From Microcaldota archaeon (GTDB lineage Archaea > Micrarchaeota > Micrarchaeia > Norongarragalinales > UBA8480): a stretch of 12,955 nt of DNA. Location: contig JAHFHN010000007.1 in assembly GCA_023246885.1 (NCBI GenBank), positions 1 to 12,955 of the forward strand. The letters run 5' to 3'. Shown piece by piece: positions 3,515 through 10,768 of the stretch. Made by a program: the position numbers and the translations under genes. The notes beneath the pieces are model-generated. The model was not told the DNA's origin. It did not search any database and saw nothing but the letters and a program-made list of their open reading frames with translations. Numbering within the stretch: the first letter of the stretch is position 1; each line of letters starts with the position of its first letter.

Positions 3515-3580
3515 ATAGTTATAAACTTCGACAAATGTTTAAAGCATTGCGTTCGTTAAGTAATACGGTGTGTGTTTCAA

Positions 3581-4798
3581 ATGAAAATGTCAATGTCAAA
3601 AGAGGGTCAATTAGTTGTTCCAGATGCTGTTGATATTCCTTTTATAGAAGGCGACGGAACTGGCTCGGACATTTGGGCAGCTTCTCGAATTGTTTTTGAT
3701 GCAGCGGTCAAAAAAGCGTACAACGGCAAACGCAGCGTAAATTGGGTTGAAGTCCTTGCTGGCGAAAAAGCGCAAGAAGCAAAGGGAACCATGCTTCCAG
3801 ATGAGACGCTTGAACAAATTAAATCCCACTTTGTGGCAATTAAAGGCCCGTTGACAACCCCCATTGGAACTGGTTTTCGCAGTATAAACGTCACATTGCG
3901 CCAAGTGCTTGACCTCTATGCTTGTGTTAGGCCAGTCAAGTGGTATAATGGAGTTCCTGCTCCAGTTACTCACCCCCAAGATTTAAACGTCGTAATTTTT
4001 AGGGAAAACACTGAAGATGTTTATGCTGGACTTGAATGGCAAAGCGGAAGCGAGAAAGCAAAGAAACTCGTGCATTTCTTAAACACTGAACTTGATTGTA
4101 AATTATCAAGCGAAGCCGGTATTGGCATAAAGCCAATGACAAAAGCAAATTCTCAACGATTAATCCGTGCTGCAATTAAGTATTCTCTAGCAAATCGCAG
4201 TAAGAGCCTCACTCTTGTACACAAAGGCAATATCATGAAGTACACTGAAGGGGCGTTCAAGCAATGGGGTTATGAATTAGCTGCAAGTGAATTTAGCAAC
4301 CAAACAATTACTGAAACTCAAGCAACTGAAAATCCAGCTCTTGCCAGTGGCAAGTTAATTGTAAATGACCGGATTGCGGATAATATGTTCCAACAAATTC
4401 TCCTCAGGCCAAGCGAATATAGTGTAATTGCGTGTCCAAACCTCAATGGAGATTATCTTTCTGACGCAGCTGCAGCACAAGTTGGCGGCCTCGGAATAGC
4501 ACCGGGCGGTAACATTAATTACGAAACTGGCTACGCGGTTTTTGAAGCAACGCACGGCACTGCACCTAAATACGCTGGACAAGACAAGGTTAACCCGGGT
4601 AGTGTTATCTTAAGCGGTGTGATGATGTTTGAATATATAGGCTGGAGTGAAGTTGGCAAACTAATTGAAACCTCAATGGCAAAAACAATTGAAAGCAAAA
4701 AAGTCACGTATGACTTCCACCGCCAAATTCCAGGAGCAACGCTTGTCAAGTGCTCAGAGTTTGCAAATGAAATAGTTACCCATATTGAAAAGAGCTAG
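3581..4798 (+). CDS. icd: isocitrate dehydrogenase, NADP-dependent type
   Basis: The enzyme oxidatively decarboxylates isocitrate to 2-oxoglutarate. The protein matches the E. coli Icd subfamily along its full length (405 aa from ATG 3581). It has the N-terminal PFIEGDGTG, the substrate loop [22 protein letters not shown] (Ser of the E. coli phosphorylation site, Asn and Arg kept), [13 protein letters not shown], the [15 protein letters not shown] catalytic Lys/Tyr region, and the metal-binding Asp in [20 protein letters not shown] determinants known from E. coli are present: Lys-Tyr in [13 protein letters not shown] and the Tyr/Arg of TYDFHR. GTG 3572 is a possible earlier start, but GGTG at 3567-3570 fits an SD 10 bases before ATG 3581. 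No other TCA gene is visible, so its role may be glutamate precursor or NADPH supply. Confidence 0.95.
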
Positions 4799-4833: not shown

Positions 4834-4891
4834 CTTCTTTTCTCCTTAAAATATTTACAAATGCGGGGGTCGCATAGTGGCTATTGCGGTA

Positions 4892-4953
4892 AACCCCCTT
4901 TTTCCTACAAAGAAAAAGGCCGTTTACGGTTCAAAAAAAATTTGGGTACGCAA
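4892..4953 (+). other. tRNA intron 1 (position 29/30), 62 nt
   Basis: This intron interrupts the 5' strand of the anticodon stem. The junction has a bulge-helix-bulge shape: exon GCGG (4886-4889) faces ACGC (4948-4951) with three GC pairs and one G-A mismatch. The 5' bulge is UAA (4890-4892) and the 3' bulge is AAG (4952-4954). The next helix, ACCC (4893-4896) with GGGU (4944-4947), stacks directly on the 3' strand. Inside lie a CCTTTTTC/GAAAAAGG hairpin (4897-4919) and a small CCG-TTTA-CGG hairpin (4920-4929). Confidence 0.75.
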
Positions 4954-4961
4954 GCCTGCTA

Positions 4962-5001
4962 ACAATTTCCTTTTAACCAATAAAGGAAATCAGGAATGGT
5001 C
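4962..5001 (+). other. tRNA intron 2 (position 37/38), 40 nt
   Basis: This is at the canonical archaeal anticodon-loop site, just after A37. Its core is a hairpin ATTTCCTTT (4965-4973) with AAAGGAAAT (4982-4990). The central helix expected from bulge-helix-bulge rules is weak (CUGC with AUGG, mostly wobble pairs), and a competing CCUG/CAGG pairing exists at 4955-4958 with 4991-4994. The splice points are therefore set mainly by the need to restore loop CUGCUAA and stem GUAGC/GCUAU. Confidence 0.68.
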
Positions 5002-5035
5002 AGCTATTGAGGTGTAAATCTCGCGTGGGTTCGAA

Positions 5036-5101
5036 AAGCCATGCCTTTTCTTTTAGAAAAAGAAAAGGCCAGGCGTGGCCAAAAGAAAAACGGCACGAAA
5101 A
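5036..5101 (+). other. tRNA intron 3 in the T-loop (position 59/60), 66 nt
   Basis: T-stem GTGGG (5025-5029) and CCCAC (5103-5107) are split by this intron. The junction is close to the canonical bulge-helix-bulge: central helix TTCG (5030-5033) with CGAA (5096-5099), 5' bulge AAA (5034-5036) and 3' bulge AAT (5100-5102). Cutting after the second base of each bulge restores the consensus loop TTCGAAT. A 12-bp hairpin (GCCTTTTCTTTT, 5043-5054, with 5058-5069) occupies the middle. Confidence 0.85.
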
Positions 5102-5162
5102 TCCCACTCCCCGCGTTTATACTAATTCGAGCAAAAAAACCAAGTCTTGTTCGGTTGCTTGT

Positions 5163-10492: not shown

Positions 10493-10768
10493 GGCTCTTG
10501 AGCGGAGTTGTCTTGTCAGTTGGATAACTATAGGCATTCAACTTTCGCCTCGGCTTTGTAACTCACGAGCACGTTTTTCAATGTTTAGAGTTGCTTCCTT
10601 CCGGACCTGGCTCGGTTCACATTGACCCACGTAACGTGAGGCAAAGCGTCTACAGTTTCTGCTGAACCTAGTTATAGCTATTCAAAAGCCGTGAGCAGCT
10701 CTCTTCACTCCGCTTAAGGGGATTGCAGCTTCCAGGGAACCCCTAGCTCCCCAGCTAGCTCAAAAGCC
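10493..10768 (-). ncRNA. ffs: signal recognition particle RNA (7S RNA)
   Basis: This 276-nt RNA is the scaffold of SRP and binds SRP54 and SRP19. On the minus strand, helix 8 holds the diagnostic AGGUCCGGAAGGAAGCA (about 10592-10609), with a GGAA tetraloop flanked by the asymmetric loop that binds SRP54. The 5' end GGCUUUUGAGC (10768-10758) pairs perfectly (one G-U) with the 3' GCUCAAGAGCC (10503-10493), the helix 1 closure typical of archaea. The Alu domain follows the 5' end, with GGGGAGCUAGGGGUUCCCU. A TATA-like element lies about 25-32 bases upstream. Ends are set by the closing helix and could differ by a few bases. Confidence 0.93.

Follow-up and report, generated by a model that had tools for sequence, protein, structure and literature searches.

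A tRNA-Ser(GCU) gene in four exons from a Microcaldota archaeon and a family of dispersed elements that includes two of its three introns

The locus at positions 4863–5115 of the window (the whole stretch of 12,955 nt that was analysed) raises two questions: whether its scattered segments make up a functional tRNA gene, and where the sequences that separate them came from. Direct reading combined with a script gave a tRNA-Ser(GCU) gene of four exons and three introns, as listed here.

4863–4891, plus strand: exon 1 (nt 1–29), with the acceptor 5' strand, the D-arm and the first 3 nt of the anticodon stem; the same in G002, a genome of the same genus.
4892–4953, plus strand: intron 1 (junction 29/30), 62 nt, with a relaxed bulge-helix-bulge (BHB) motif; member of a dispersed element family.
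4954–4961, plus strand: exon 2, a microexon (nt 30–37, GCCTGCTA, anticodon GCT), from the script; a separate exon also in G002, G004, G006, G009 and G015.
4962–5001, plus strand: intron 2 (37/38), 40 nt, with a hairpin inside it (ATTTCC/GGAAAT) and a weak or relaxed splice motif.
5002–5035, plus strand: exon 3 (nt 38–59), with the 3' anticodon stem, the long variable arm, the T-stem 5' strand and TTCGAA of the T-loop.
5036–5101, plus strand: intron 3 (59/60, in the T-loop), 66 nt, with a near-canonical BHB and a fold z of −3.26; 66 of 66 nt the same in G002.
5102–5115, plus strand: exon 4 (nt 60–73), with T60, the T-stem 3' strand, the acceptor 3' strand and the discriminator G.

Removal of the introns of 62, 40 and 66 nt left an 85-nt product, which ARAGORN identified as tRNA-Ser(gct) with all stems: a 7-bp acceptor stem, D-arm, 5-bp anticodon stem, long variable arm and a T-loop reading TTCGAAT. 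The acceptor strands, read directly, are GCGGGGG and TCCCCGC, and the discriminator G73 lies at 5115. The original prediction, made from the letters of this sequence, had named the serine identity and GCU anticodon, the matching acceptor strands, the 8-nt anticodon exon at nt 30–37 and the three intron lengths, and its positions proved exact to the base. It had also expected ordinary scans to miss the gene, and they did: ARAGORN found no tRNA at the unspliced locus with or without its anticodon-intron option (-i), and Rfam at its gathering threshold did not find the gene in the window, an SRP RNA elsewhere being the sole match.

The splice junctions were inspected by eye and by folding. At intron 3, TTCG (5030–5033) pairs with CGAA (5096–5099), the bulges are AA^A and AA^T, and the inner helix is GCC/GGC with one A·A mismatch, which agrees with the almost ideal BHB predicted for this T-loop intron. 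Its junction was set at 59/60 because the accessible text of PMC12397907 places the endonuclease cut between bulge nucleotides 2 and 3. Intron 1 has a relaxed motif, made of GCG (4886–4888) with CGC (4949–4951) and ACCC (4893–4896) with GGGT (4944–4947), and the motif of intron 2 is weak, with no clear BHB in either the pairs drawn by eye or the folds. The T-loop intron with its flanking exons folded better than 200 of 200 shuffled sequences, and the stretches around introns 1 and 2 did not rise above their shuffles (z −1.39 and −0.86). With the As repeated at the junctions, the splice points can shift by about one base (28/29 or 29/30; 58/59 or 59/60), leaving the product unchanged.

To place the gene among its relatives, we compared the window's genome G000 (contig C99; a 771-kb draft, 63% complete) with G001 and G002 of the same genus (71 and 91% complete) and with further genomes of the order. 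Twelve of 40 genomes, G000 among them, contain exon 1 with at most three mismatches. A 27-base pattern from the exon-1 region (at most two mismatches) gave a single match apiece in 23 of the 29 order genomes, including all eight with at least 90% completeness and at most 5% contamination; the six genomes without it include G001. The 23 homologues were split into exons at boundaries set by hand in a script, and when spliced every one was called tRNA-Ser(gct) by ARAGORN (23/23), one of them (L127) only with an insert in the variable arm removed as well. Seven proved intronless, and the other 16 carried 28 introns in all, at 37/38 (11 genes), 59/60 (nine), 29/30 (six), 54/55 (one) and in the variable arm (one).

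That the anticodon stem is assembled from three exons, as had been claimed, is supported by the six genes with the 8-nt exon, where 29 of 30 pairs of this stem are kept, and the T-stem keeps 50 of 50 pairs in the ten genes with a T-loop intron; both counts are partly circular, because the splice boundaries were chosen to give the tRNA cloverleaf, and it is the variation inside the pairs that was not built in. Across the 23 genes, pair 27–43 is G-T, C-G or G-C, plus one T-T, and pair 50–64 occurs in five types. What did not hold was the supposed rarity of a T-loop intron combined with an 8-nt microexon. The 8-nt exon GCCTGCTA, framed by introns at 29/30 and 37/38, is present in 6 of the 23 Ser(GCU) genes of the order (G000, G002, G004, G006, G009 and G015) and a T-loop intron in 10 of the 23; three introns occur together in four (G000, G002, G009 and G015), and T-loop inserts are common in other tRNAs of the genus too. 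The locus holds a genuine gene, of a type already known and not as rare in the order as was supposed.

Could the locus still be a decayed pseudogene, or a chance resemblance or assembly artefact that looks like a split tRNA? The draft state of G000, at 63% completeness, is a point in favour of such a reading. Against it, every exon base is the same in the separate genome G002, which has the same three introns, intron 3 being identical and introns 1 and 2 varying mainly by indels; the stems are intact, the homologues splice to tRNA-Ser(gct), and a covariance model for intact or lightly interrupted genes found no other Ser(GCU) gene in G002. We consider this explanation disfavoured to the point of being scarcely credible.

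The last point bears on a refutation that the original prediction had itself proposed, a second intact tRNA-Ser(GCU) in the genome. We searched with a covariance model made from seven intronless Ser(GCU) genes, which recovered genes outside its training set in G004 and G006, each with two short introns and a score of 74 bits, and in G003 (64 bits). No second tRNA-Ser(GCU) was found by this model in G000, where the sole match was a tRNA-Asp, or in G002, where it was a tRNA-Ile; the model is blind to three-intron genes, so these results exclude only intact or lightly interrupted extra copies. The exon-1 pattern likewise gave one match per genome. The gene thus appears to be single-copy, G000 alone being too incomplete to settle this.

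Several observations concern the surroundings of the gene. The upstream flanks of G000 and G002 differ at three places in 90 nt and are identical over the last 30 nt, and downstream, from window position 5116 on (compared with L135), the two genomes diverge almost at once. In 5 of the 23 homologues (L120, L122, L125, L130 and L127) a second tRNA 3' end lies ~40–135 nt behind the gene, four found by script (at most two mismatches in 14 nt) and that of L127 by eye, with element-like runs between the gene and the extra end in some of the five. Two homologues from two genera of family f2 (L139 in G007 and L140 in G019) have C rather than U at position 33 (CCGCTAA). The tRNA adjoins an isocitrate dehydrogenase gene (window 3572–4798) that is 53–62% identical to the 80 loci listed, 78 of which, by reading, have bacterial record titles; this hints at acquisition by lateral transfer, judged from sequence similarity. 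No syntenic tRNAs were obtained from these 80 loci. The SRP RNA (window 10498–10763, minus strand) has Bacteria_large_SRP as its best Rfam match, though the splicing endonuclease is archaeal.

That endonuclease and the ligase were examined next to the gene. The EndA of G000 (L142, 387 aa) aligned with ARMAN-2 4FZ2 over residues 11–387 (377 aa, E 6e-128), with the catalytic Y236, H251 and K282 and the loop pair Y160–K161 conserved; the roles of the catalytic Tyr, His and Lys and of the loop residues are those given in the accessible text of PMC12397907. PF01974 was present in 36 of 40 genomes, G000 included, and in many it matched twice within one frame of ~400 codons. In its available portion, PMC4033280 describes the epsilon-2 endonuclease as cutting relaxed motifs. 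RtcB was partial in G000 (C81, cut by the contig end) and full-length in G002 (C19), and it was not found in three of the nine genomes searched, all three of which are less than 90% complete.

Taken together, the locus is very probably a functional, apparently single-copy three-intron tRNA-Ser(GCU) gene whose introns would be spliced by proteins and of which introns 1 and 3 would derive from a family of elements that insert into tRNA genes. Its host has a small genome and, to judge by the ARMAN-type enzyme, is probably Micrarchaeota-like. The gene would be transcribed as one precursor with introns at 29/30, 37/38 and 59/60; an ARMAN-type epsilon-2 endonuclease may then cut intron 3 at TTCG/CGAA and the other two introns at relaxed motifs, and RtcB may ligate the four exons, including the 8-nt anticodon exon. 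Intron 2, with neither a clear BHB nor kinship to the family, counts against the full model.

The kinship of the introns emerged when they were compared by BLAST with 243 kb of sequence from the genus, in 93 loci. Intron 3 matched its orthologue and elements in many other places of the genus; its match to the anticodon-loop intron of another G000 tRNA (L008) was 91% over 53 nt, this tRNA being Thr(CGU) by eye and Ala(cgc) according to ARAGORN. Intron 1 matched an element elsewhere in G002 (L284) at 92% over 50 nt, and L255 and L014 at ~80%. Intron 2 matched nothing but the orthologous gene among these loci. By sequence, intron 1 and intron 3 fall into one dispersed family, whose mark is a hairpin together with a mirror purine run. 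A prediction from a single sequence could not have revealed this origin for two of the three introns. The shared core consists of CC, a pyrimidine run T(a)CT(b) (Y), a short loop, A(b)GA(a) (R2), a spacer (4–20 nt allowed) and A(e)GA(f) (R3), and in intron 3 it lies as follows.

5044–5090, plus strand: element core in intron 3, beginning with CC at 5044–5045, the Y run TTTTCTTTT at 5046–5054 and R2 AAAAAGAAAA at 5057–5066.
5067–5090, plus strand: remainder of the core, with the spacer at 5067–5080 and the mirror run R3 AAAAGAAAAA at 5081–5090.

R3 mirrors R2: among the 67 copies with unequal Y runs (86 copies parsed), the first run of R3 has the length of the first Y run (e = a) in 58 and that of the second (e = b) in two. 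The run lengths a and e correlate at 0.95, a value matched by 0 of 2000 shuffles, which is not a clean probability because the copies are related. A base stem formed by the spacer with the bases that precede Y has at least 4 bp in 37 of 86 copies, against 12% of mismatched pairs, and at least 3 bp in 72 of 86, against 55%. An intramolecular triplex needs a purine mirror repeat, and R3 could serve as the third strand of a triplex forming in the element. RNAalifold on a MAFFT alignment found no pair (26 of 34 copies), and the covariance model was one of sequence only.

The family was counted by a sequence pattern, with the reversed pattern as control. TTTCTTN{1,12}AAGAAAN{8,20}AAAGAA gave 526 matches, nested ones included, in the 29 order genomes, against 37 for the reversed control. 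At least one match was present in 22 of the 29, and across the phylum in 76 of 245 sampled genomes. The pattern is rare in the large families f10 and f14 (at most seven and two per genome), and genomes of several other families hold 20–57. G009 and G226 are among the genomes rich in the element. A pattern for T-loop introns, GGTTCGA...CGAANNTCC, gave 29 matches in 15 of 29 genomes but 20 for its reversed control, so it was not used as a count.

Where do the copies lie? In G000, G001 and G002 there were 88 distinct places, of which 87 were kept, G002:C36:30268 being merged since it apparently equals another copy including the 12-nt flanks. By eye, 78 of the 87 are in tRNA genes or within ~100 nt of one and nine are not; one of these nine (L276) appears to be a match by chance within a gene. 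On the minus strand of L277 (G002), at ~1291, a copy is perhaps inside some other structured RNA gene, not a tRNA. A T-loop context was seen for 29 copies, and removal of the insert gave an ARAGORN tRNA in 22, some of doubtful isotype (one Stop); the window gene and its orthologue are among the seven without, because two more introns remain in them.

Evidence of gain comes from five orthologous T-loops in the genus, each of which lacks an insert in one species and carries one in another. The empty sites of Asp, Leu and Arg were flagged by script; those of Ala, Thr and a second Asp were read by eye with ARAGORN calls.

Asp(GTC) T-loop: empty in G000 and G002, filled in G001.
Ala(GGC) T-loop: empty in G000, filled in G002.
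Leu T-loop: empty in G001, filled in G002.
Arg(GCG) T-loop: empty in G000, filled in G002.
Thr T-loop (by eye): empty in G000, filled in G002.

A copy outside tRNA genes, at the EndA stop codon of G002, lies between two 26-nt stretches (one mismatch), and G000 has a single such stretch. These observations suggest recent, mobile-like intron gain. A long target duplication for every element was considered and is not supported: direct repeats scoring at least 12 flank 6 of the 87 copies, against 2 of 261 control places, so such a duplication is the exception. Individual copies do show a duplicated target, but as a general mode this is unproven.

The same data bear on an explanation that needs no mobile DNA element, in which the only routes that shuffle introns among tRNA genes are homologous recombination, gene conversion, or reverse splicing with reverse transcription. 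Most copies do sit in tRNA genes, which have exon sequence in common, only 6 of 87 are bordered by direct repeats, and a comparable intron transposition has been described for Thermoproteales (as cited in the available parts of reviews). Such shuffling fits poorly with copies outside tRNA genes, such as that at the EndA stop codon with its duplicated target and empty counterpart in G000, and with the antisense element copies found between tRNA pieces in some cases. We regard shuffling as conceivable, though on the doubtful side.

The tRNA pieces themselves invite another reading. Exact repeats of 26, 42 and 52 nt, which are duplicated 5' or 3' tRNA pieces, flank elements in L147, L150 and L178, and elsewhere 3' pieces lie behind elements. 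At L147:1340–1572 (G012) three tandem tRNA 5' pieces, each the first 23–26 nt of the tRNA, have two elements between them in an order that resembles repeat–spacer, the last piece being an intact tRNA. Partial copies of this kind could be scars of att-type or casposon-type integration, with the introns as by-products of integration or recombination, as has been proposed for the tRNA-Thr of Caldiarchaeum; integrases do leave duplicated tRNA pieces, according to the accessible text of PMC3293823. The inserts, however, share a conserved core and measure only tens of nucleotides, unlike a plasmid, and a duplicate of this kind is missing beside most intron copies, so we think this origin unlikely.

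A more far-reaching reading of the family as a whole, to which we give slightly less than even odds, is a novel archaeal mobile sequence: a gene-less element with a core of ~40–50 nt, a triplex-capable hairpin plus mirror run and a patchy distribution over lineages of one phylum, which would prefer tRNA genes and become a protein-spliced intron on arrival, since duplication of a TTCGAA target would make the splice motif. The reading of the gene given above already holds that such short elements would insert mainly into tRNA genes and turn into introns there, and that at the T-loop a duplicated palindromic TTCGAA may supply the TTCG/CGAA central helix. L262, L250 and similar copies, with GGGTT-like repeats on both sides, gave rise to the duplication idea. 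If the more far-reaching reading is right, the family would be for tRNAs what introners are for eukaryotic genes, and most non-canonical tRNA introns of these archaea would stem from it. The wandering-intron family is the new and more surprising part of this locus, the tRNA gene itself being of a known kind.

Where archaeal tRNA introns come from, and whether they are ancient or recent gains, has long been disputed. With the same tRNA present with and without an intron in one genus, a shared core and an empty counterpart at a non-tRNA site, gain can be watched and tested here, and the element family offers a route to the study of tRNA intron origin. Multi-intron tRNAs, T-arm introns, epsilon-2 endonucleases and the transposition of introns in Thermoproteales are already in print, as far as the available parts of that literature show, and PMC11782384, in its accessible text, argues, on the strength of direct repeats, that introns act like mobile elements, those of archaea among them. 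The hairpin-plus-mirror family was not described among the matches listed in searches of the open literature on Micrarchaeota or DPANN tRNA introns and on introner-like or MITE-like archaeal elements, and a Micrarchaeota genome survey (PMC12892359) does not use the word intron in its main text. The available part of that survey gives 17 to 67 tRNAs in Micrarchaeota lineages (tRNAscan-SE), against only 11 tRNA genes that our Rfam search found in a genome of this genus with 91% completeness; tRNA genes are thus missed, and claims on completeness or codon decoding that are based on tRNAs need care.

Eukaryotic introners are dispersed short elements that become introns at their landing site, and those introns are spliceosomal introns of mRNA. 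The family described here resembles them in being dispersed, short and intron-forming, and it has two of their traits, a multicopy dispersed related sequence and presence or absence at orthologous sites; it differs in that its introns are tRNA introns, which would be cut by protein rather than by a spliceosome. Thermoproteales, for their part, also have introns at T-loop positions such as 59/60 and the combination of 29/30 with 37/38. Like their multi-intron tRNAs, as the available sources describe them, the window gene has no more than three introns of putative BHB type, at canonical and non-canonical positions, and is missed by ordinary scans. Three introns each are reported in the accessible text of PMC4390854 for pre-tRNA-Glu(UUC) of Pyrobaculum calidifontis and pre-tRNA-Pro(UGG) of P. 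islandicum, and since the available portion of PMC4033280 gives three as the maximum per tRNA in Thermoproteales, the window gene stands at the known maximum. Unlike theirs, it belongs to another lineage with another type of endonuclease, and its introns share the hairpin plus mirror-run core.

The multi-intron tRNAs of ARMAN-1 and ARMAN-2 are similar in being served by the same epsilon-2 endonuclease architecture, which cuts relaxed motifs, although the mirror-repeat family is not named in the accessible parts of the papers on them (PMC4033280 and PMC12397907). With the intron transposition of Thermoproteales (Fujishima 2010, as cited in the available parts of reviews) our case shares the occurrence of similar introns in different tRNA genes; judged by those citations, it is set apart by copies outside tRNA genes, duplicated tRNA fragments and empty and filled sites within one genus. 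Finally, tRNA-Thr(GGU) of Caldiarchaeum, in the accessible text of PMC3293823, likewise ties intron gain to a mobile element with a duplicated tRNA 5' piece, but there the insert is 1.8 kb with a putative recombinase gene, whereas the inserts seen here are gene-less and tens of nucleotides long.
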